This document shows, in pieces, positions 7,046 through 61,056 of a stretch of 64,000 bases of DNA (position 1 is the stretch's first letter; every line of letters begins with the position of its first letter). Location: assembly GCA_017631275.1 (NCBI GenBank), contig JAGBTQ010000016.1, forward strand, positions 1 through 64,000. The letters are read 5' to 3'. The notes beneath the pieces are model-generated. The model worked only from the letters and a program-made list of their open reading frames with translations. It made no database searches and was not told the origin of the DNA. Origin of the DNA: Alistipes sp. GTDB taxonomy: Bacteria; Bacteroidota; Bacteroidia; Bacteroidales; Rikenellaceae. Both the position numbers and the translations under genes were made by a program.

Positions 7046-9405
7046 TATCTCTCTGTGTATATGCGTTTTACACGTGCCGAAATCGAGGTCATTATCTCGT
7101 ACGATATAGTATCGAGTGTCTGGGCCATCTCCTCGAGCGTAAGACCCTTTTCGGCAGAGAATATAGTAACCTTGTCGCCCACCTGAACGCCCTCGATGTC
7201 GGTAACGTCGATCATTGCGCTATCCATACATACGCGACCGATGATTGGTGCGCGCTTGCCACAAACGCTCACGCTCCATCTGCCACCACCCAAGTGGCGG
7301 TCAAGGCCGTCGGCATAACCCACAGGTATTGTGGCGGTTATTGTATCACGCTCAAGGCGCTTTGAGCGGCCGTAGCCCACCGACTCGCCACGCTGCAGCT
7401 GCTTAATCTGCACGATGCGTGTTGAGAGCGTAGCCACGGGGATTAGTTTGTCGTTATGCTCATAGCCAAAGCCATATAGACCAAGACCCAAACGTGCCAT
7501 GTCGAATGCCGCCTCCTTAAAGCGCACTATACCTGCCGAGTTGGCGATATGGCGCAGAGGTGTGTAGTCGAGCCACTCGATAAGCTGCGAGCTCATATAG
7601 TCGAAGAGCTCAATTTGTGAGCGTGTGAAGTCGTCCTCTGCTGGTACATCGGCACACGATAGGTGTGAGAATATCGAGGCTATGCGTAGCGATGTGTCGA
7701 GGTGTATTGCACGACCGAGTAGGTCTACCTCGTCCTCCATAAAGCCGAGGCGGTGCATGCCTGTGTCGAGCTTGATGTGGATAGGGTAGTGCTCCCTTCC
7801 TGCGCGGTGCACGGCACGACGAAACTCGTCGAGCGACTGGAAGCTATATATCTCAGGCTCAAGGTCGTGAGATATCATCACGTCGAAGCTGTCGTGGTCG
7901 GCATTGAGCACCACGATAGGCATTGTAATTCCCTTTGAGCGTAGTGTCACGCCCTCGTCGGCAAATGCCACAGCGAGGTATGCCACGCCCTCATGCTGGA
8001 GCATGCGTGCCACATCCACGTCGCCCGTGCCGTAGCTCCATGCCTTGACCATGGCAACAACGGGGTGCTGCTGTGGTAGGTGCTTACGGAAGTAGTCGAG
8101 GTTTTTCTTCATTGCTGATAGATCGACCTCGAGGGTTGTTGTGTGTGTGCGTCGCTCGAGTAGTCGGCTAAGACGCTCAAAACGGCTGTCACGGCTACCC
8201 TTGATAAGTATTACCGAGTCTGCCCAGCGCTCACGACCGAAGTTCTCGATAAGCTCGTCGGTGGTGTAGTAGAACGAGGCGTTATAGTCGAAGAGGTTGC
8301 TATGCTTGGCAATGTTCTCGCCCACGCCGATAAGGTGGTCAACACCAGCGCTCTTAACGGCCTCGGCAACACGGCGGTATAGCTCCTCCGAGGGAGTGCC
8401 GCTCTGCAAGATGTCCGAGATTACGGCAATCTTGCGACGACCCATCGACTGACGATGCAGAGCGTCGAGAGCCACAATCACGGAGTTGATATCCGAGTTA
8501 TACGTATCGTCAATAATCATCGAGTTGTCGATGCCCTCCTTTAGCTCAAGGCGCATGGCAACCTTTGCCGAGAATACTGCACCATCGACCGAGTAGCCAA
8601 GCTTGTGCATTAGTGCTGCCACGTGTGCTGCGTCAATCTCCAATGCCGCATTTAGCTCCAATGTATCCTCGATGCGCTCACGGCTACTGTCAATGAGCTC
8701 ACGCTCCGAGTATTGTTTTGTGATCTTCTCGGCGAGCGACTGATACTCCTTACTATATATTATTGTGCGGGCACGTGAGGCAAGCTTTAGCTTCTCGTCG
8801 ATCTTCTGCTCGATGTTTAGGAAGTTTGCTGAGTGTGCGTCGCCAATAGATGTAAATACTACTATATCGGGCTCAATCATTCGCTCCAGGCGCTCCATCT
8901 CGCCTACCTGTGATATGCCCGCCTCGATGAGCGCTATTTGCTCCTCGCCACTAAGCATGAGTAGCGAGAGGGCCACGCCCAGCTGCGAGTTGTAGCTCTT
9001 TGGCGAGGCAAACGAACGTATCGACGAGGGTAGCGAGCGTGCTGCCCACTCCTTGACTATTGTCTTGCCATTCGAGCCGGTGATGCCCACAACCATGCCC
9101 TTAAACTCTTTGCGGTGGTGCGTAGCCAGAAGCTGTAGTGCCTCGAGCGTTGAGCCTACGATGACCATGCCACAATCCTCGTTGAGTGCCACCTCGCGCT
9201 CGACGATGAAGCACTTAACGCCACGCTTAAGCATGCGCTCGATGTAGTTGTGGCCATCATGGTTCTTGCCATTGATAGCTGCAAACAATGCCCCCTCAGA
9301 TGAGGTTATGCTGCGTGAGTCGGTGACAACGTTACCCACTCTTAGGTCGTTGCCACGCAGTTCGCCACCCACAATTTGGGCTATTTCAGATAATAGATAG
9401 TTCAT
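7045..9405 (-). CDS. Bifunctional MurF ligase / alanine racemase
   Basis: 786 residues. The N-terminal half (about 1-410) is a Mur ligase with the ATP loop GITGSNGKT and the DDTYNSD motif of MurF, which adds D-Ala-D-Ala to the UDP-muramyl tripeptide. The C-terminal half (about 418-786) is a PLP alanine racemase. Its Schiff-base lysine is in AMVKAWSYGTG near residue 450, and the catalytic-tyrosine region GRVCMDSAMIDV lies near the end. The fusion is known from Bacteroidetes and makes D-Ala and uses it in one polypeptide. Eleven bases separate it from mutS2. Confidence 0.93.
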   Translation of the reverse strand: MNYLLSEIAQIVGGELRGNDLRVGNVVTDSRSITSSEGALFAAINGKNHDGHNYIERMLKRGVKCFIVEREVALNEDCGMVIVGSTLEALQLLATHHRKEFKGMVVGITGSNGKTIVKEWAARSLPSSIRSFASPKSYNSQLGVALSLLMLSGEEQIALIEAGISQVGEMERLERMIEPDIVVFTSIGDAHSANFLNIEQKIDEKLKLASRARTIIYSKEYQSLAEKITKQYSERELIDSSRERIEDTLELNAALEIDAAHVAALMHKLGYSVDGAVFSAKVAMRLELKEGIDNSMIIDDTYNSDINSVIVALDALHRQSMGRRKIAVISDILQSGTPSEELYRRVAEAVKSAGVDHLIGVGENIAKHSNLFDYNASFYYTTDELIENFGRERWADSVILIKGSRDSRFERLSRLLERRTHTTTLEVDLSAMKKNLDYFRKHLPQQHPVVAMVKAWSYGTGDVDVARMLQHEGVAYLAVAFADEGVTLRSKGITMPIVVLNADHDSFDVMISHDLEPEIYSFQSLDEFRRAVHRAGREHYPIHIKLDTGMHRLGFMEDEVDLLGRAIHLDTSLRIASIFSHLSCADVPAEDDFTRSQIELFDYMSSQLIEWLDYTPLRHIANSAGIVRFKEAAFDMARLGLGLYGFGYEHNDKLIPVATLSTRIVQIKQLQRGESVGYGRSKRLERDTITATIPVGYADGLDRHLGGGRWSVSVCGKRAPIIGRVCMDSAMIDVTDIEGVQVGDKVTIFSAEKGLTLEEMAQTLDTISYEIMTSISARVKRIYTER

Positions 9406-52974: not shown

Positions 52975-53424
52975 CTATTTTGCCTGTGGAAAGGCGTTTA
53001 TTGGGTTATATTTCTCGCCGTCGTGCTCGTAGCAATATGTCGTAATGCCGTTTGTCATGGCTATGTATCGGCATCGTAGCACGTTGTTGTAGCGTGTCAC
53101 CTGGCGTAGCACCTCCTCGCTAATCTTCACGTTCGGCTCTTTGCACTCGACGACCATTAGGGGCCTTAGGTCTGCACCCATCACCACTATGTCGGCGCGC
53201 TGTGCCATGCCGTTAATCTCGACGGGATACTCCTCGACAATTAGCTGTGGGGCAAAGCCACACTCCGTGCGTAGATACTCCACCACATGACGGCGCACCC
53301 ACTCCTCGGGTGTGAGCACCAGCCAACGACCACGCACCGCATCGAATATCTCGGTGCAGCCCCTATCGTTGCGTCGTGCACGTAGGCGTATGGGTGGAAA
53401 GTTGAGCGTAGGGTAGTCCGCCAT
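52975..53424 (-). CDS. Stand-alone HsdR-N-like (type I restriction R N-terminal domain) protein
   Basis: 149 residues from the ATG at 53424; a promoter at 53450-53479 excludes the longer frame. It resembles the N-terminal nuclease-like domain of type I restriction R subunits: YPVEINGMAQRADIVVMGAD followed by PLMVVECKEPNVKI, giving the D...ExK pattern of PD-(D/E)xK nucleases (Asp about 99, Glu-Cys-Lys about 112-114). The helicase part and hsdM/hsdS are absent nearby. Such short proteins are common in Bacteroidetes as single genes of unknown role. Confidence 0.8.
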   Translation of the reverse strand: MADYPTLNFPPIRLRARRNDRGCTEIFDAVRGRWLVLTPEEWVRRHVVEYLRTECGFAPQLIVEEYPVEINGMAQRADIVVMGADLRPLMVVECKEPNVKISEEVLRQVTRYNNVLRCRYIAMTNGITTYCYEHDGEKYNPINAFPQAK

Positions 53425-53438
53425 TGCAAATAAAGTAT

Positions 53439-53446
53439 TATATTTG
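53439..53446 (+). promoter_or_regulatory. -7 box for the C_GCAxxG_C_C gene
   Basis: TATATTTG on the plus strand, 22 bases ahead of the ATG at 53468. It lies within the divergent promoter patch, four bases from the minus-strand box. Confidence 0.6.
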
Positions 53447-53449
53447 TGG

Positions 53450-53479
53450 CAAAGATACTTAAATAATATGGAAAAGCAA
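53450..53479 (-). promoter_or_regulatory. Promoter for the HsdR-N-like gene
   Basis: Minus-strand TATCTTTG (53450-53457) with TTG at 53477-53479, spacer 19 bases. It reaches into the first codons of the divergent gene, so the two promoters should interfere. Confidence 0.7.
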
Positions 53480-53947
53480 CTAATCATAAATGTAGATGAG
53501 CGTGTAGAGCGTGCTCAGAGTCTTTTTAAGGCGGGATATAACTGTGCTCAGGCTGTTGTCATGGCATTCGACGACGTTATGGGACTTACTACCGAGGAGC
53601 TTGCACGCCTTGCTGCACCCTTTGGTGGTGGCATGGGCCGCATGCGTGAGGTGTGTGGCACTGTTAGTGGCATGGCATTCTTGGCGGGTGCTATCAAGCC
53701 CTCGGCTGACCCCAGCAACCTCGAGGAGCGCAAGGAGAACTACGCCCTTGTGCAGTTGTTTGCCGATAAGTTTCGCATGGAGAATGGCGACATCGTCTGC
53801 CGCCGATTGCTGGGCTTAGAGCCTATTGCCGAGCGCAATGAAACACCTATGCCCTCGGCTCGCACTGCGGAGTACTACCGCAAGCGCCCCTGCTCCGAAT
53901 ATGTCGGCTGTGCCGCCCGCATCGTCGCCGAGTACCTTGCAAAGTAG
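53468..53947 (+). CDS. C_GCAxxG_C_C family redox-type protein
   Basis: 159 residues from the ATG at 53468. The defining blocks are GYNCAQAVV near residue 27, FGGGMGRMREVCGTVSGM near 55, a cysteine in DIVCRRLLG near 105, and PCSEYVGCAARIV at the end. The conserved cysteines suggest metal or redox chemistry. The family is named only for its motif and no reaction is established. Single gene followed by a strong hairpin. Confidence 0.88.
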   Translation: MEKQLIINVDERVERAQSLFKAGYNCAQAVVMAFDDVMGLTTEELARLAAPFGGGMGRMREVCGTVSGMAFLAGAIKPSADPSNLEERKENYALVQLFADKFRMENGDIVCRRLLGLEPIAERNETPMPSARTAEYYRKRPCSEYVGCAARIVAEYLAK

Positions 53948-53963
53948 GGTAGTAGCCACATAA

Positions 53964-54003
53964 TAAAAAAATCAGCAGACCCCGTCGGCCTGCTGATTTT
54001 GTT
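53964..54003. terminator. Bidirectional terminator between GCAxxG gene and tatC
   Basis: AATCAGCAG (53970-53978) pairs with CTGCTGATT (53990-53998). A run of A lies on the left and T-rich sequence on the right, so it can end both the plus-strand gene and the minus-strand CXXX-Tat operon. Confidence 0.88.
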
Positions 54004-54043
54004 TTTATTAAGGAAATGCATTTCTCCAAAAGTTGCAAATAAG

Positions 54044-54838
54044 TTAATTTTTAATTTTATCAACTTTTTTTGCAACCCATATACTACATTCATATAGAAA
54101 GTATAGTGGAAAAGTTACTAGAAGGCAACTTAAAATATCAGGAGGTGTAATTATTGCAGATATTACCGTAATGGTAAAGAAGGCGTATTTTCTATATTTA
54201 GCTAATATACTAAAGTTTACAATACCCATTTTAGCAAGGATAAATATAATTACTGGCAGCTGAAAAACTACCCCCATAACTACCGTTAGTGATGTAAAGG
54301 TGGAAATATATGACTTCAGTGTAATCATACTGCTAATTGTCTCAGATACACTATATGTTCCTAAGAACCTGAATGATATAGGAAATATCATAAAATAGCA
54401 CATCAATACTCCTATTATAAATAACGAGTATATAATAATGGTTGCCAACACCGAATATTTACGCTCATTGTCATAAAGCGCAGGTAAAATAAATCGAAAT
54501 AATTCCAATAGAATGTAAGGAGATGCTAATAGTAATCCCAAATAAATCGATGTTGTTACGTGTGTCATAAACTGACTCGACAACTCTGTTGCTATTAAAT
54601 CAACATTGTACTCATCAAACTGGAAGTCAAGGCCCAGACCTTGCAGTGTCTGCTCAATTATACGATATGTAATAAAGTTGCTTTTGCTTGGGGCTAATAA
54701 TAATTCCCATGCAATATCTTTAATAACAAATACGCCAATGGCAAGGGCCAATGTGACGCCAAGTATGCGAAATAACATTCGGCGAAGCACCTCTAAGTGT
54801 CCGCCGAATGTTAACTGATTATCATTGCTCTCCTGCAT
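54044..54838 (-). CDS. tatC: Sec-independent protein translocase TatC
   Basis: 264 residues from the ATG at 54838 (the frame is open 13 codons further, with little sense). Six membrane helices can be followed. The cytoplasmic N-terminus FGGHLEVLRRMLFRI matches the conserved TatC HLxELRxR motif that reads the twin-arginine signal. FRFILPALYDNERKYS corresponds to the first cytoplasmic loop region. Base composition is about one-third GC, far lower than nearby core genes. It is the last gene of the CXXX-peptide operon, and its start overlaps tatA by 17 bases. Confidence 0.92.
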   Translation of the reverse strand: MQESNDNQLTFGGHLEVLRRMLFRILGVTLALAIGVFVIKDIAWELLLAPSKSNFITYRIIEQTLQGLGLDFQFDEYNVDLIATELSSQFMTHVTTSIYLGLLLASPYILLELFRFILPALYDNERKYSVLATIIIYSLFIIGVLMCYFMIFPISFRFLGTYSVSETISSMITLKSYISTFTSLTVVMGVVFQLPVIIFILAKMGIVNFSILAKYRKYAFFTITVISAIITPPDILSCLLVTFPLYFLYECSIWVAKKVDKIKN

Positions 54839-55058
54839 TATCAAGTGGTTTGTTTTGATTTGGCGTATGTGATTCACTTGACTGATGTTGTTCCTCTCTA
54901 TTTTGAGTATGTTCTTTGTCTGAATCAGCCTCCTTCATCCCTTTTTTGAATTCTTTGACGCCTTGTCCAAGTCCGCGCATCATTTCGGGAACTTTCTTTC
55001 CTCCGAAAACTAGTAATGCTAAACCACCTAACAGTAATAGTTCAGTTGTTCCTAACAT
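54822..55058 (-). CDS. tatA: Sec-independent protein translocase TatA
   Basis: 78 residues. The short N-terminal membrane helix (about 4-18, TELLLLGGLALLVFG) is followed by the FGGKKVPEMMRGLGQG hinge and amphipathic helix, then a charged Gln/Glu-rich tail. This is the standard TatA form that builds the Tat pore around folded cargo. It lies six bases after the small accessory gene and overlaps tatC. Because both precursor peptides of the operon bear Tat signals, this TatA-TatC pair may be dedicated to them. Confidence 0.93.
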   Translation of the reverse strand: MLGTTELLLLGGLALLVFGGKKVPEMMRGLGQGVKEFKKGMKEADSDKEHTQNREEQHQSSESHTPNQNKPLDNAGEQ

Positions 55059-55064
55059 ATTACA

Positions 55065-55337
55065 CTAATTGTTGTCAATTAAGAAAATTTCACAAGTCTC
55101 AAAATTTATCTCCCAGTGACCATTTTCAGAGCCTTCCCACTGGTATTTCGTAGCCATAGAATCCCACCATTTCTGAAACTTTGTACCTGTTTCGCCCATA
55201 TCCTTCACGAGTTTCTGATATAGCGCCTCATTATCAGGTGTTAATATCTTTGCTAATTCGTTGAGACCATTACGACGCTCAAATAGTGTCTGAATCTCAT
55301 TCTTCTCTTCTAATGTTACTAATCCAACCGTTTTCAT
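55065..55337 (-). CDS. CXXX-repeat peptide modification system small protein
   Basis: 90 residues from the ATG at 55337, four bases after the maturase stop; a longer frame from 55364 would overlap that gene. The sequence MKTVGLVTLEEKNEIQTLFE, a central helical part and KFQKWWDSMATKYQWEG then WEINFETCEIFLI has no recognised catalytic motif. I recall a small protein of similar length and ending named as a CXXX-repeat peptide modification system component, always beside the radical SAM gene. A role in binding or presenting the precursor is inferred, not shown. Confidence 0.7.
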   Translation of the reverse strand: MKTVGLVTLEEKNEIQTLFERRNGLNELAKILTPDNEALYQKLVKDMGETGTKFQKWWDSMATKYQWEGSENGHWEINFETCEIFLIDNN

Positions 55338-55341
55338 AAAT

Positions 55342-56289
55342 TTACCACTTTTTATGCTCTTCAAATGGGTCTAAATAACTTATTTGAGGAATGTTCACCT
55401 CTGTGTTATATTCGAAATCATCTTTAATATATTGCAAAATACGACCACTCTCGTTGCGCTCGAGATGTGCTACGACACATTGCTCGTGCGAAGGAGTATT
55501 AACTTCTAATGTTGTTTTGCGATTAAGCCATGCACAACGGCGACAGTGATACGAATCACAATGACGACATATCGGAGCATAGTCCAATTTAAAGAGCTGT
55601 CGATTCTTAATCTGTAATCCTCGCGTTAAGTCCCCGAAGTCCTCTTCTGCATTGTCGTAGTAGAATCCCGCACAAGGATAAAACTTTCCGTTAGGCATAA
55701 GAGTAACAGTCTCATCGCCAGCATTGCAATTATTCATTGCTTTAAGTACTAAACGGTCTGTAAGCAAGTTGAGCTGAGTGTTATCTCCCGCTAGAATGTT
55801 TGCTTTTACCGTATTTCCCAACTGAGTCAATGTCGCTTTGTATGAGTCAAACTCACTATCAGTAAATTTGTCTATGTCCGTAATAACAACGTTCACACGA
55901 GCACACTTGCCATTGAGAGCATTAAAAATACGTGGCAACTCATCGATTTCATTGCGACCTATTCGTAAGATTGCAATTTGCTCTTTGCTTAATTTGTAAT
56001 TTTCTATTTCTGTCACTCCATTGAACACGACAATATGAGAATCATAAACCACAGATGCGTCGCAAGGCAAAATCTTTGTATGGTCAATAGTCTCAATAAT
56101 CTCTGCATAGCCAACGGGTAAAGCACGTTTTGGATACACAAATTGAATATTGAGATTTTCTACCATACCAAAGCGTATAGCAGCCTTTAAATTTTCAGTT
56201 GAGATAAACTGCCCACCCTTTGTGACGTTCTCATAGTGGCAGTATGATACGGCATCATCTGCCAATTGAATAACTAAATATTTCAACAT
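55342..56289 (-). CDS. CXXX-repeat peptide maturase (SPASM-like, no radical SAM core)
   Basis: 315 residues. The N-terminal part has no CxxxCxxC and no GGEP-like SAM motif. The C-terminal part has a SPASM-like cysteine set: FYPCAGFYYDN near 220, ICRHCDSYHCRRCAW near 260, and a Cys in SHEQCVVAHLERN. It fits the group named CXXX repeat peptide maturase in TIGRFAM-type annotation (from memory). It may bind auxiliary iron-sulfur clusters and pair with the radical SAM enzyme four bases upstream, perhaps as substrate-recognition partner. Region is AT-rich like the rest of the island. Confidence 0.82.
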   Translation of the reverse strand: MLKYLVIQLADDAVSYCHYENVTKGGQFISTENLKAAIRFGMVENLNIQFVYPKRALPVGYAEIIETIDHTKILPCDASVVYDSHIVVFNGVTEIENYKLSKEQIAILRIGRNEIDELPRIFNALNGKCARVNVVITDIDKFTDSEFDSYKATLTQLGNTVKANILAGDNTQLNLLTDRLVLKAMNNCNAGDETVTLMPNGKFYPCAGFYYDNAEEDFGDLTRGLQIKNRQLFKLDYAPICRHCDSYHCRRCAWLNRKTTLEVNTPSHEQCVVAHLERNESGRILQYIKDDFEYNTEVNIPQISYLDPFEEHKKW

Positions 56290-56293
56290 AGCA

Positions 56294-57502
56294 TTAGCAG
56301 TTTAGGTTAAACGTCTTTTCGGCAGGTTTTTCTTCGCCCTCCAACTCCAATTTGCGGTAGAGTTTATTCCAGTAGTAGTTATTGGCTCTGACTCGTGCCT
56401 TGTGCATCTTACAGATGGCTGTTGCTCGCTGATAAATTGTTGGAGTATCCGCAGCATCATAGTTCTCTCCCTGACACCATGCACAGCCACTCGCTACCTC
56501 ACAGTCGATACACTCTTGTGTTGATTGTGTACAGCGGTCAAGAGTTAGGAATGGACGCAACTTGTTTTTGTCAATGCCACTATGGATATTACCAATAATC
56601 CACGCCTTCTTATCGCGCAATGAATACTGCGCAAAACGGGTACAAGGGTAGAAATTACCTGCAGCATCTATTGCCAACATTTGACCAGCACCACACCAGT
56701 TATTGTTTTCAAGTTTACAATCCATAGGTTTACCCATGTGTTCAGTGTAGAACGAACAAGCGTAATCCTTGTAAAGGTCATTGTCGATGATAGCATCAGC
56801 CAACTCCATTAACTGCTCCTCAAACTTTTTATCGTCGCCTTCTTCCCACACATCCTCAAATACACAATTGATATTCACCTCGTGAATACCCAAAGAGTAT
56901 AGATGAAGTACAGATTCTTTAATATAAGGTATATCAGCACTTGATATAGTCACTTTTGTTGCACCGCCAGGGAATTGGCTTAGCCATAACGGAATATTTC
57001 GTACTACATCGTCATACGAACCTCGCTCAGGACCATCGCCCTTCCAAATACGGTTAAGGTCGTGCTTCTGCTGTGTTCCATCAATAGTAATGCCTATGCT
57101 AAGGTGTGTGATATTCTTCTCTATGAATCGCTGAACCTTCTCTTCGTGATAGTTGATACCATTCGTAGAGAAACTAAAACGATATGAGTTGAACCAGTGG
57201 TGGTTGCGACGATATAGTTCTGATTTGATGTAGTCACAAATCTGATCAATAAGTTCTATCTCCAAGAATGGCTCACCACCAATGAAATCAAAGATCACCG
57301 AATCGTGATTAAAATTCTCATCATACTCGTTGTCAAGGATGTAGTCAATCGCTTGTTTGGCTACATCCCATGACATACGCTCCTTGGTATTCTTGCCTAC
57401 AAGATAACAATACTTGCAGGCAAGTTGGCAATCCTTGGTCACGATAAATGTAATGGTCTTGGCGATATTGGATTGCCAAGAACTGTCATTATTTTTTATC
57501 AT
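56294..57502 (-). CDS. Radical SAM/SPASM peptide maturase, CXXX-repeat target family
   Basis: 402 residues from the ATG at 57502; two codons further lies only a TTG. The radical SAM cluster motif is CQLACKYCY near residue 25, and the SAM-binding FIGGEPFLE lies near 70. A barrel-strand SIGITIDGT follows near 145. The SPASM region has WCGAGQMLAIDAAGNFYPC, then CTQSTQECIDCEVASGCAWC and a late Cys in AICKMH, enough for two auxiliary 4Fe-4S clusters. Such enzymes install thioether, C-C or epimerised linkages on ribosomal peptides. Its substrates should be the two cysteine-rich precursors directly upstream. Confidence 0.9.
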   Translation of the reverse strand: MIKNNDSSWQSNIAKTITFIVTKDCQLACKYCYLVGKNTKERMSWDVAKQAIDYILDNEYDENFNHDSVIFDFIGGEPFLEIELIDQICDYIKSELYRRNHHWFNSYRFSFSTNGINYHEEKVQRFIEKNITHLSIGITIDGTQQKHDLNRIWKGDGPERGSYDDVVRNIPLWLSQFPGGATKVTISSADIPYIKESVLHLYSLGIHEVNINCVFEDVWEEGDDKKFEEQLMELADAIIDNDLYKDYACSFYTEHMGKPMDCKLENNNWCGAGQMLAIDAAGNFYPCTRFAQYSLRDKKAWIIGNIHSGIDKNKLRPFLTLDRCTQSTQECIDCEVASGCAWCQGENYDAADTPTIYQRATAICKMHKARVRANNYYWNKLYRKLELEGEEKPAEKTFNLNC

Positions 57503-57523
57503 AAGCAAAATATTTACATGACT

Positions 57524-57955
57524 TTATGATGCACTATATTTGCAATAACCATAACATGAGGTTCTGCAACCTCCTCTACAACCAGTACATTGATCAGTGC
57601 ATTGTCCATAACAGTTGCCTGAACATCCTCCAGAACACGCACTTCCACAGCTACCACCGCAACTGCCTGTACATGAACTGGCACAAGTGCCAGAACAACG
57701 ACCTGTGCAGCCAGTACAGCTACCCGTGCATGAACCTGTACAAGTTCCCTTACAACTACCAGAACAGCGACCTGAACATGCAATACTGCAAGCACCACCA
57801 CATTGTCTGTTACAAGATAATTGCGTTTCAGAAGCTTTCGCAATAATAGGGATATTGCTCAAATATACTGCTCCTAAAATAGGTAATGCCGCTTTTGCTG
57901 CCCTCTTGAAGAATTCACGTCTAGACTGAACCTCTTCATCTTTTGATTTTCCCAT
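57524..57955 (-). CDS. CXXX-repeat precursor peptide B with Tat signal (24 cysteines)
   Basis: 143 residues. The leader carries a twin-arginine signal SRREFFKRAAK (residues 11-21), a hydrophobic stretch and an AKA cleavage site near residue 41. From Cys48 on, 24 cysteines recur mostly every fourth residue (CSGR, CSGS, CKGT, CTGS ...) with Gly, Ser and Thr between. Two units are only three long (CTG), shifting the register. The core is the expected substrate of the radical SAM enzyme 21 bases downstream. Its leader is almost identical, also in DNA, to that of the other precursor. Ends in CKYSAS. Confidence 0.9.
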   Translation of the reverse strand: MGKSKDEEVQSRREFFKRAAKAALPILGAVYLSNIPIIAKASETQLSCNRQCGGACSIACSGRCSGSCKGTCTGSCTGSCTGCTGRCSGTCASSCTGSCGGSCGSACSGGCSGNCYGQCTDQCTGCRGGCRTSCYGYCKYSAS

Positions 57956-58025
57956 GGTATAGGTTTTTAGTTGTTAATATTTTCCCCGACAAAAACTGTT
58001 AGTCGACTTTAGAAATCATGCCCAA

Positions 58026-58316
58026 TTAATACGCAGAAGCTGTACAACGACCAGCACAAGTGTATTTACATGTAGTTTTACAACTAGATTTGCATCCATC
58101 AATGCATGAACCTGTACATGTACTTGAGCAAGTGCCTCTACAAGTTGCTGTACATCCATTACTGCAACCCATACACCCCATTGGTGTTTCTGCGGCCTTT
58201 GCTACAATAGGATTTGACGCTAATAGAACTGCGCCCAAAATAGGTAATGCCGTTTTTGCTGCCCTCTTGAAGAATTCACGTCTAGACTGAACCTCTTCAT
58301 TCTTCTTCTTATCCAT
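58026..58316 (-). CDS. CXXX-repeat precursor peptide A with Tat signal (12 cysteines)
   Basis: 96 residues from the ATG at 58316; the open frame continues upstream, but that part lies in the leader RNA and has no coding character. The leader MDKKKNEEVQSRREFFKRA gives the Tat signal, then TALPILGAVLLASNPIVAKA and an AKA-A cleavage site. The core has 12 cysteines: one CMG unit and then CXXX units (CSNG, CTAT, CRGT, CSST ... CTASAY). First gene of the operon, 70 bases ahead of precursor B. It looks like a tandem duplicate with a kept leader and a diverged, shorter core. Confidence 0.9.
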   Translation of the reverse strand: MDKKKNEEVQSRREFFKRAAKTALPILGAVLLASNPIVAKAAETPMGCMGCSNGCTATCRGTCSSTCTGSCIDGCKSSCKTTCKYTCAGRCTASAY

Positions 58317-58432
58317 ATAGTGCTGTTTGTGTGCCGTTTCGACTCCTTTGCGGCATGTTTGTATAAAAAAGAAAGTGTGGAGTCGTTCGTTTATCTGATG
58401 ATAGGCATTTGGCGTGGCCCTGGCACAAATAA

Positions 58433-58650
58433 ACAATACCCCACACTTGCAAAGTATGGAGTGGGCACAGAACATGCCAACAAACATACATATACAAGCA
58501 ATGAGTGTTATTGCCCCTTGTGCCTGAAAAATCGCCAAATTTTATCATCAAGGATAGCGAAACACTTTCACTAAAATATGTCATCGGTTACCCGATGTGA
58601 CAAAGTTAAGAAATATTTCGCAAATAAGCAACACTCAAGTGGGGTATTGT
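58433..58650. repeat. Inverted repeats flanking the CXXX-operon promoter
   Basis: ACAATACCCCAC (58433-58444) and its exact reverse complement GTGGGGTATTGT (58639-58650) are 194 bases apart. Allowing a two-base gap, the match extends by TTG. The operon promoter (58601-58631) lies between the arms, and the right arm is upstream of the transcription start, so the pair cannot form a hairpin in the mRNA. Confidence 0.6.
58601..58631 (-). promoter_or_regulatory. Promoter of the CXXX-peptide/Tat operon
   Basis: Minus-strand TAACTTTG (58601-58608) and TTG (58629-58631), spacer 20 bases, a full consensus match. Transcription would start near 58594, giving an untranslated leader of about 280 bases before precursor A. 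That leader contains complementary AAGTGTGG/CCACACTT segments and an ATCGG-GTAA-CCGAT hairpin at its very start (58583-58596). Confidence 0.8.
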
Positions 58651-59001
58651 AATAAATTATTTACAAAGTTCTAAACAATTACTTATTTGTGCAATAGTTA
58701 TATGTATTGAAATTTAATAAAGATATTTGTATATTGTCATCTACTTTGCTAACATTTTTTTTGGTGCAGGTAATAATGAAAACTTTAAAGAGCATATCTT
58801 TTAGTTTTGACTGCGGCCAGTGCCATTTGTCATACATTTATTGTCGTTTTATCATATCTTTGCTCCAAAAAACAATGTGATTGATGCAAGGGAACAAAAA
58901 GATTTCGTATATTTGTATTTGCAAAATCGCATTAGCGGTAGCCATCGTGAGGCTTTGGCTACACACGAATGGCAAAATAAATGTATAGAGCCTCTATTTG
59001 T
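58651..59001. other. AT-rich intergenic gap with plus-strand -7 boxes
   Basis: No gene is seen. Plus-strand TATCTTTG (58855-58862) and TATATTTG (58908-58915) could drive the VanW-fusion gene; possible TTG elements are 24-25 bases away, longer than usual. The sequence is strongly AT-rich like the adjoining island. Confidence 0.5.
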
Positions 59002-61056
59002 ATGAATGTGAGTATGAAAAATGCACCCGAGTTAATAGTGATGCTAACTTACAACGATTTCACGGTGATGAATGCCGCTGAAATATTTGAGGCGTGCAAG
59101 AATTCGAAGGCTAAATATTGGGGCTTGAAGGAGCACCCACTAACTCGCGACGAGCTTAAACGTCTGTTTGCCCGCATGAAGGAGTGCGGCAAGACAACCT
59201 TCCTCGAGGTGGTATCTTACACCGAGGCGGAGGGACTCGAAGGGGCGAAGATTGCCGTTGAGTGTGGCTGCGACATATTGATGGGAACAACCTATTTCGA
59301 CAGCATTCACTCCCTCTGCAAGCAACACAACTTGAGATATATGCCCTTTGTGGGCAGGGTTGAGGGTCGCCCCTCGGTGCTCGGCGGCGAGATTGACGAC
59401 ATGGTGGCTGAGGCTAAGCGTTACCTCGACAAGGGTGTCTACGGCATCGACTTGTTGGGCTACCGCTACACGGGCGACTACAACAAGCTGCACCAAGCAT
59501 TCAAGGCGAACATCGATGCGCCCGTATGCATGGCGGGAAGCATCGACTCCTACGAGCGCCTAGGCGAGATTAGGGAGATTGCCCCCTGGGCATTTACCAT
59601 AGGTAGTGCCTTCTTCGACCACAAGTTTGGCGACTCCATAGCCGAGCAGATAGATGCTGTGTGCGATTTTATAAACCCTCCCGCAGCAGTGAAATGTGCT
59701 GGGCTCAAAAGGTATTTCCCTTATGAATATGTAGATGATGTCTTCTCCATTCCTTATTGGGCTCTCTATAAGAGGGGTGTCCGAGGTTTGATATTCGATA
59801 TTGACAACACCCTCGTGCCTCATGGCGAGGAGTGCACCGAGGAGGTGGTTGCGCTATTTGATAAACTCCATAAAATAGGATTTACGACACTCCTCCTATC
59901 AAATAATAGCGCTCAACGACTTGAAAAATTTAACCTCAATATAGGTGCTCACTGCATAGCCGATAGCAGCAAGCCCCACGCCGAGGGTTTTCAAAGAGCG
60001 TTGCAGATGCTGCGTATGGACAAGAGCGAGGTTGTTGTGATTGGCGACCAGCTATTTACCGACATATGTGGTGCTAACGACAGCGGCATCGCAAGCATAC
60101 TAGTGAAGTATATAGGTCATGAAAAGTGGGAGTGGAAGGGCTTTAGACGATATTTAGAGAACATTCTTCTTCTCATTTACCGATGTAACAAGAGGTATAG
60201 ATACCGCCTGTTCGGTGAAAGCGTGATGAGGAAAAAGACTCTGTTTTGCGAGATAAACGCCACAACATATGCCATATCTCTGCACAAGGAGATCCTAAAG
60301 CGTCACATAAAAAACCTGTTTAGTAGGGAGAAGTACGCCCACGAGTACTCCGCGGAGCCTCTGCCCATTGTTGTGGCGAGCCAAGGTGGCGACATGATTA
60401 AACGTGGACCAGGCATTGATATGCAGCTGCAGATAAACAAGGCGAATAATATCCGCTTGGCGTGCAGTATGATGAATGGCCTTGTTATTCGCCCTAGCGA
60501 GAGCTTCTCTTTTTGGCACTATGTGGGTAAGACATCTGCGAAAAATGGCTTCGCCGACGGTCGTGTAATAGTTAATGGAAGGCTCGTTTCGGGCGTGGGC
60601 GGTGGACTATGCAACTTGGCCAATACGCTGAATATGCTCATCATGAATAGCCCCATGACCGTAACCGAGATACACCACCACTCCGATGCTCTGGCTCCCG
60701 ACCCCGATGGCGTGCGTGTGCCCTATAGCGCGGGAACGTCGGTTAACTACAACTTTATAGATTATCGCTTTAGAAACGACACCGACCAGCCTGTGCAGTT
60801 GTGCGTTTGGTGCAATGGCGATTTCTTGCATGCCGAGCTTAGAACCACAAAGGAGTTTAAGCTCAACTACCGCATTGTCGAGGAGGACCACCACTTCCAC
60901 CTCGAGAATAATGGCAAGTTCTATCGTAAGTCGAAGATATACAGAGAGGTTGTTGATAAGGCAACGGGCGAGGTCGTACAGCGCGAATTAAGATGGGATA
61001 ACCGCTCGGAGGTTATGTACGACTACTCGCTTATCCCCCAAGATCAAATCGGATAG
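59002..61056 (+). CDS. TIM barrel - YqeG-like HAD phosphatase - VanW three-domain fusion
   Basis: 684 residues from the ATG at 59002 (59014 is also possible; the open frame begins at 58981). Residues about 5-225 form a TIM-barrel-like domain with VPF/VxG strands, such as GIDLLGYRYTGD and PVCMAGSIDSYE. Residues about 245-390 are a HAD hydrolase of the YqeG type: FDIDNTLVPHG (nucleophile Asp), LLLSNN and VVIGDQLFTDICGAN. Residues about 415-680 are VanW: RPSESFSFWHYVGK, GVGGGLCNLANTLNMLI, HHHSDALAPDPDGVRVPY and NYNFIDYRF. VanW accompanies VanB-type glycopeptide resistance clusters but its reaction is unknown. No membrane helix or signal is seen. Confidence 0.88.
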   Translation: MNVSMKNAPELIVMLTYNDFTVMNAAEIFEACKNSKAKYWGLKEHPLTRDELKRLFARMKECGKTTFLEVVSYTEAEGLEGAKIAVECGCDILMGTTYFDSIHSLCKQHNLRYMPFVGRVEGRPSVLGGEIDDMVAEAKRYLDKGVYGIDLLGYRYTGDYNKLHQAFKANIDAPVCMAGSIDSYERLGEIREIAPWAFTIGSAFFDHKFGDSIAEQIDAVCDFINPPAAVKCAGLKRYFPYEYVDDVFSIPYWALYKRGVRGLIFDIDNTLVPHGEECTEEVVALFDKLHKIGFTTLLLSNNSAQRLEKFNLNIGAHCIADSSKPHAEGFQRALQMLRMDKSEVVVIGDQLFTDICGANDSGIASILVKYIGHEKWEWKGFRRYLENILLLIYRCNKRYRYRLFGESVMRKKTLFCEINATTYAISLHKEILKRHIKNLFSREKYAHEYSAEPLPIVVASQGGDMIKRGPGIDMQLQINKANNIRLACSMMNGLVIRPSESFSFWHYVGKTSAKNGFADGRVIVNGRLVSGVGGGLCNLANTLNMLIMNSPMTVTEIHHHSDALAPDPDGVRVPYSAGTSVNYNFIDYRFRNDTDQPVQLCVWCNGDFLHAELRTTKEFKLNYRIVEEDHHFHLENNGKFYRKSKIYREVVDKATGEVVQRELRWDNRSEVMYDYSLIPQDQIG

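Follow-up and report, generated by a model that had tools for sequence, protein, structure and literature searches.

The radical S-adenosylmethionine (SAM) enzyme PapB links Cys to Asp within CX3D motifs, a step of four residues, as described in the sections consulted of PMC9413430. In the QhpD/QhpE/QhpF system, radical SAM thioether cross-linking takes place in the cytoplasm and is followed by export (PMC7876137, sections consulted). The third system of interest is PhoD with TatAdCd of Bacillus, a twin-arginine translocation (Tat) pair whose genes adjoin that of their substrate, found in genomes with a second TatC (PMC3827258, sections consulted). The locus described here lies in positions 1–64,000 of contig JAGBTQ010000016.1 of Alistipes sp. 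(assembly GCA_017631275.1), a stretch of 64,000 nt hereafter called the window. It is a minus-strand operon of seven genes in the order precursor A, precursor B, radical SAM/SPASM enzyme, SPASM partner, 90 aa protein, tatA and tatC. The most probable reading of the sequence data, held with fair confidence, is a horizontally acquired cassette for CXXX-repeat peptides, similar to ribosomally synthesised and post-translationally modified peptides (RiPPs), that carries a dedicated Tat exporter.

The first two genes, precursor A (58026–58316, 96 aa) and precursor B (57524–57955, 143 aa), each encode a Tat-type leader followed by a CXXX core, of 12 Cys in A and 24 Cys in B. Downstream, on the same (minus) strand, are a radical SAM/SPASM peptide maturase of 402 aa (56294–57502; TIGR04115, 644.1 bits, cut-off 350), a CXXX repeat peptide maturase of 315 aa, the SPASM partner (55342–56289; TIGR04119, 235.4 bits, cut-off 150), and a CXXX repeat modification system protein of 90 aa (55065–55337; TIGR04116, 98.7 bits, cut-off 50). 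The last two genes are tatA (54822–55058; TIGR01411, 60.9 bits, cut-off 53.9; PF02416, 53.3 bits, cut-off 21) and tatC (54044–54838; TIGR00945, 151.2 bits, cut-off 132.7; PF00902, 199 bits). Intergenic gaps are 70, 21, 4, 4 and 6 bases in gene order, and tatA and tatC overlap by 17 bases. An earlier note, made from the sequence alone, had described seven minus-strand genes here with gaps of 4–70 bases and one overlap, all of which the coordinates bear out. It had also proposed radical SAM modification of a CXXX peptide, in agreement with the three enzyme families found above their curated cut-offs, and had suggested profile searches of each gene; these place the maturase, the partner, the 90 aa protein, TatA and TatC all above the NCBIfam cut-offs. 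Against TIGR04117 (cut-off 50), precursor A falls below the cut-off at 37.7 bits and precursor B is barely above it at 50.5 bits, the match on B covering residues 5–76, leader included. Both exceed the TIGR04114 cut-off of 20 (20.5 bits for A, 29.2 for B), and Pfam at E 0.1 found no family in either. The cassette is of an already annotated kind (the NCBIfam 'CXXX repeat' set); its export half looks new.

Relatives were collected by one scan of named genomes with an alignment of seven radical SAM proteins. At least 559 stretches encode a relative; the best 80 of these, six regions from a sample of the order and the window itself make up the 87 loci compared, a choice by best hit that over-represents close relatives. 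There are 72 loci of split type, with separate radical SAM and partner genes, nine of fused type, and six with no partner gene in view (truncated or distant). Most split loci are labelled Bacteroidales or its families, and many loci are labelled as rumen and gut samples. L099 is a Rhodospirillales bin. L043 and L086 carry Clostridia and Pseudobutyrivibrio bin labels, but their best segments show 82% and 75% identity, and both are probably misassigned. TIGR04119 is above its cut-off in 4 of 200 sampled family members (the window genome among them) and TIGR04115 in 7 of 295 genomes of the order sample, and TIGR04116 is found in 3 of 395 genomes of the phylum sample.

Leaders and linked export genes differ between the two cassette types. 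Precursors were recognised by the periodicity of their Cys residues, within 6 kb and on the same strand, with RRx[FLMV] as the twin-arginine (RR) motif, and linkage was counted only in loci with at least 5 kb downstream (57 split, 8 fused). An RR motif is carried by 100 of 104 precursors in split-type loci and by none of eight in fused-type loci. Linked tat genes are found in split loci (tatA in 41 of 57, tatC in 38 of 57), and neither gene in any of the eight fused loci. Of two cultured carriers, Xylanibacter rarus strain 109 has tatAC linked at its locus L041, and Bacteroides sp. GM023 has none at L042. The earlier note had called for a genome search for CXXX precursors with and without linked tatAC, and these counts are its outcome: RR leaders and linked tatC do co-occur with CXXX peptides. 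The observation that the note had named as refuting its idea, tatAC and Tat motifs never found together with CXXX peptides, is thus clearly contradicted. Counting any position in the genome, 67 of 70 split-type and two of nine fused-type genomes (G037 and G357) have a TatC. G037 is from the same order and has TatC, yet its cassette is of the fused type and lacks an RR precursor, so the difference in leader follows cassette type and not taxonomy alone.

Fused loci carry a different kind of transporter. Pfam was run on ten neighbour proteins from six of the nine fused loci, and an ATP-binding cassette (ABC) protein with transmembrane and ATPase parts was found in all six checked (L037, L100, L101, L102, L104 and L107). 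A solute-binding protein occurs in L102 and L107, and a subtilase-family protein in L037 and L100 (both of the two checked). In the latter two loci (L037:6603–9085 and L100:7669–9946) the ABC exporter is paired with the small subtilase-like protein, an arrangement recalling QhpE/QhpF. When neighbouring frames were clustered, the ABC family was found, besides the operon's own genes, in 14 loci, of which nine belong to the set of 12 that are fused-type or distant; the remaining clusters are in nine loci or fewer each, and the idea of additional conserved genes in the operon was dropped.

A tree was built from 46 linked TatC proteins and 57 unlinked ones; it requires five changes between the two labels, against a mean of 34.0 in shuffles. 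With four long rows excluded (L148, L153, L154 and L170), 37 of the 46 linked TatCs, including that of the window, fall on one branch (bootstrap 100, SH-aLRT 99, stem length 0.51). A single origin for all 46 was rejected by the approximately unbiased (AU) test, in which the same long rows are omitted (p-AU 0.0086), so tat joined the cassette more than once. The TatC trees also omit L166 and L167 (distant) and any linked TatC with a score not above 270 (L076, partial); the linked rows L079 and L092 come from one genome. The radical SAM tree, which omits short proteins, L116 and L117, shows 13 switches between presence and absence of linked tat. At least two TatC matches are found in 35 of the 46 genomes with linked tatC, some of the extra matches being fragments or part of a second cassette, compared with 14 of 288 order-sample genomes without an above-cut-off TIGR04115. 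In the window genome, the operon tatC is the only TatC match in the assembly.

The two window precursors share EVQSRREFFKRAAK, and the Tat motif SRREFFK is present in each, as had been noted earlier. The Cys-to-Cys step is exactly four in 10 of 11 intervals of core A and in 21 of 23 of core B; among 100,000 shuffles of each core the maxima were 8 and 14, so the spacing of a cysteine at every fourth core residue, also noticed before, exceeds every shuffle. Across the relatives, 86.6% of 2313 intervals have the next Cys at a distance of four. In 70% of 1914 intervals a Ser, Gly or Thr immediately precedes the next Cys, and Asp or Glu make up about 6–8% at each of X1 to X3 in the same set, with no regular acceptor. 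The precursor frame at L055:8923 (346 aa) contains 74 Cys, and for 68 of these the residue four positions later is again Cys. In L051 (8326–14770) the cassette is duplicated in part, with a second partner fragment and a second 90 aa protein and tatA, and there are five RR precursors.

The consensus of 100 distinct RR leaders, a set that leaves out L099 and keeps a few from truncated loci, is ELQSRREFFKKAAKxxLPILGA. The precursor search demanded only RR and a hydrophobic residue at +4, other leader positions being free to vary, and the conserved ones are Phe+5 (96%), Lys+6 (90%), Leu+13 (84%), Pro+14 (90%) and Gly+17 (75%). The last three fall within the hydrophobic part of the leader, a part that is usually not conserved by letter in Tat signals. 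A Pro near the same place occurs also in L099 and in L223/L224, and the pattern suggests that the Leu+13/Pro+14/Gly+17 segment may be read by the maturation complex as well. A model built from 32 leaders matched only the two precursors in the window genome (E up to 10). At most 35 of the 100 leaders end in a lipobox in which the Cys is the first of the protein, an upper estimate from a simple pattern that also takes in L054, L070, L071 and L096, where the Cys looks like the first core Cys. Two or more acidic residues are among the next six in 24 of these 35 (for example CSKDD, CDKDDD and CGDDDD); K-(D/E)2 and SDDDD following Cys are reported as surface-export signals in Bacteroidetes (PMC5080379, sections consulted). 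Precursors A and B of the window have no lipobox.

The radical SAM enzyme has a CX3CX2C motif at residues 25–32 and seven more invariant SPASM-type Cys in an alignment of seven sequences. Its closest solved structure is 5wgg (CteB); the alignment starts only at 5wgg residue 93, and the window enzyme has no space for an N-terminal leader-binding domain. The partner lacks CX3CX2C, has seven invariant SPASM-like Cys and Cys17 (62 sequences), and matches 5wgg in the SPASM part only (338–391). In all nine fused open reading frames (ORFs) a radical SAM enzyme is joined to a full-length partner, as seen with a profile made from separate partner proteins alone, which aligns after the radical SAM part over almost its entire length. 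A second, weak alignment of this profile falls on the C-terminal half of the radical SAM part in eight of the nine (L108 and L111 included, L037 excepted), so that this half and the partner may be related. The 90 aa protein is predicted by AlphaFold2 to fold as beta-alpha-alpha-beta-beta (mean pLDDT 95.0, pTM 0.82), and a sequence search of solved structures gave no clear relative (best E 0.046). A role for it as a leader-binding RiPP recognition element was considered; the predicted order of strands and helices seems unlike that of such domains. In L223 (508 aa ORF, 7726–9252) and L224 (367 aa ORF, 7436–8539), from another Bacteroidota family, the partner is fused to the 90 aa protein; the fused frames adjoin a precursor with RR and lipobox, and the tatA and tatC profiles match nothing within 16 kb. 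Because of the fusions of radical SAM enzyme to partner and of partner to 90 aa protein, the three modification proteins would be expected to form one complex. The nearest families of the radical SAM enzyme are PapB (NF047865, 198.8 bits), SCIFF (116.9) and the quinohemoprotein amine dehydrogenase maturase (106.4), all of them thioether formers. By analogy, the most likely modification is the formation of thioether cross-links that tie the Cys sulfur to carbons close by.

Taken together, these features suggest the following pathway for the cassette with its dedicated Tat exporter. The radical SAM enzyme, its SPASM partner and the 90 aa protein would act as one complex on the Cys repeats of the precursors in the cytoplasm, most likely forming thioether cross-links as in the nearest characterised relatives, and the N-terminal Tat signal would serve also as the leader. 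The modified product, stiffened or folded, would then be exported to the periplasm by TatA and TatC of the operon. Release would be by signal peptidase I for the window precursors, and the lipobox precursors of relatives would be lipidated through signal peptidase II. We infer the thioether chemistry, the double role of the leader, the folded state at export, the processing and the destination. A bolder version, which we put forward tentatively and think rather less likely to hold, is a RiPP-like class in which the leader is the Tat signal and a rod of Cys repeats, stapled by the radical SAM enzyme and folded beforehand, leaves through a Tat translocase of its own. As PapB connects residues at a distance of four, the sulfur of each Cys may, in this version, be bonded to the next Cys (i to i+4) in a continuous sulfur ladder, and the lipobox variants with acidic stretches would be displayed on the cell surface. 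Such a Cys-to-Cys ladder is speculative, and would retain the geometry of PapB.

Several results weigh against the favoured reading of a cassette with a dedicated Tat exporter. Four split-type precursors are exceptions to the RR rule, one having an RR in another frame and three having none within about 100 codons upstream. TatC gave no match at all in three split-type genomes (L072, L086 and L088), and nine linked TatCs sit outside the main clade, in three further places of the first tree. The loci, chosen as best hits, also lean towards close relatives. With the window assembly at 87.5% completeness, a second TatC could have escaped it. The idea that Tat was absent from the relatives of the window genome and was brought in by the operon was dropped; G113 and G213, of the same family in the order sample, have no TatC, but 138 of 200 sampled family members do. 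On the side of the chemistry, the window enzyme does not reach the PapB cut-off of 340, and the idea of a PapB-type CX3D product was dropped for lack of regular Asp/Glu acceptors. The general Tat-signal model TIGR01409 (E up to 1) has no match in the window genome, precursors included, whereas 12 of 14 control genomes were matched. Linked tatC is missing from 19 of 57 split loci, in which RR leaders are kept. A single TatC is present in 17 of these 19 genomes, and no 90 aa gene lies beside it in any of the ten of the 17 that were fetched. Given these counts and the 13 changes of linked tat on the radical SAM tree, the general Tat system probably suffices in some hosts and accepts these leaders. 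This leads to an alternative that is unlikely, in which the Tat pair merely travels along as a passenger. Any Tat would then serve the precursors, and tatAC would be kept only because small mobile cassettes hold useful genes together. The long-stemmed clade of operon TatCs, the frequent occurrence of two or more TatCs in genomes with a linked copy, and the repeated recruitment of tat argue instead for a shared function. The earlier note had postulated a dedicated Tat pair, and its claim stands in so far as the pair is part of the cassette (linked tatC in 38 of 57 loci, and an operon-specific TatC clade); the pair is not obligatory, and the related fused type has no Tat signal.

Somewhat less probable again is that the core binds metal or a cluster in the manner of a metallothionein, with the radical SAM enzyme changing few residues or installing a cofactor and Tat being needed because the metal is loaded in the cytoplasm. 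The number of Cys, 12 and 24 in the window cores and up to 74 in relatives, would suit such a core, and so would the usual cargo of Tat, which commonly carries cofactor proteins. The four-residue spacing goes with a peptide-maturase family, however, two SPASM proteins are kept, and the fused-type relatives have an ABC exporter in place of Tat. A further alternative, that chance or descent gives the leaders their likeness to Tat signals and that they are in fact ordinary signals of the Sec or lipoprotein kind, is very improbable. The two flavours of cleavage region, with and without a lipobox, would fit this idea, as would the failure of TIGR01409 to match, but the partition of RR leaders between split and fused loci, the conservation of Phe+5 and Lys+6, and the linkage of tat genes (in 38 to 41 of the 57 loci) all speak for Tat signals.

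The operon lies within a 4.9 kb segment (54008–58895) that is not present in G521, a relative of the same genus, which has about 53 bp in its place. By blastn against this genome (locus L219), the left flank 52023–54007 matches 1–1989 at 92%, and the right flank 58896–59672 matches 2043–2819 at 96%. The segment was either gained in the window genome or lost in G521, and its composition (GC content 0.387, against 0.496 for the whole window) favours a gain. The earlier note had taken the AT-rich makeup as a sign of transfer, and the empty site in the relative, together with the low GC content, supports acquisition as an inserted segment. Inspection of the borders for direct repeats gave nothing longer than 8-base matches; no search aimed at transposases was made. 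The segment is flanked by reading frames of 167 aa (53444–53947) and 691 aa (58981–61056), and a 170 aa frame nearby (52975–53487) seems to resemble a type I restriction N-terminal or nuclease-like domain.

Both transcription signals that had been proposed for the operon need qualification. A terminator-like hairpin (53968–54000, minus strand) does follow the operon and is usable, but it has a counterpart in the empty site of G521, so it belongs to the flanking chromosome and is shared. The probable promoter is the sequence TTG-N20-TAACTTTG on the minus strand at 58631–58601, which agrees with the Bacteroides -33/-7 pattern. A sigma-70 scan did not place this site among its notable ones. The scan gave a 9 of 12 match at 58603–58575, which is ordinary (26 such sites, with 16.3 +/- 4.8 expected), and a promoter claim resting on it was dropped. 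By that scan, the consensus promoter of the earlier note is only an ordinary match, no better than others. Just 3′ of the probable promoter, within an untranslated leader of about 285 bases, is a hairpin (CATCGGGTAACCGATG, 58582–58597) that is a possible regulatory site.

The export of modified peptides is known mostly through ABC transporters. Relatives carry an ABC exporter where this cassette has a Tat pair of its own lineage, and the comparison provides a natural test of the purpose of Tat, namely whether cross-linking makes a peptide into folded cargo. With precursors of up to 74 Cys, the cassette also points to uncharacterised radical SAM chemistry that would be of use in enzyme and materials research. 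It may in addition lead to an envelope or surface material of a new kind in Bacteroidales.

In the open-licence papers searched, TIGR04114–TIGR04117, TIGR04119 and 'CXXX repeat peptide' are not named and no study of the cassette was found, although subscription journals may hold work on it. 'CXXX repeat' and 'radical SAM' occur together in none of these papers, and searches that paired Tat with radical SAM or RiPP terms brought up no description of the system. The main text of a survey of RiPP clusters in Bacteroidales (PMC10352776), in the sections consulted, mentions neither twin-arginine nor CXXX, and the consulted sections of PMC8939145 do not mention Tat. The nearest match is the CXXX-repeat cassette of NCBIfam (TIGR04114–TIGR04119), to whose curated cut-offs the maturase, partner, 90 aa protein and precursor B of the window all rise; it differs in being a set of annotation models for which no paper was found. 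PapB (freyrasin) and SCIFF/CteB are the nearest sequence relatives of the radical SAM enzyme, and the four-residue step of PapB equals the Cys spacing of the window cores. In contrast to these, the window enzyme is under the PapB cut-off, its cores lack a regular Asp/Glu acceptor, it has no counterpart of the first 92 residues of 5wgg, and its system adds a SPASM partner and a 90 aa protein. The QhpD/QhpE/QhpF system is mirrored in the fused-type loci L037 and L100, with their subtilase-like protein and ABC exporter, whereas the window type has Tat genes in place of the exporter, and CXXX repeats in place of a dehydrogenase subunit. PhoD/TatAdCd shares with the window a Tat pair next to its own substrate, but PhoD is an enzyme and not the product of a peptide maturase.

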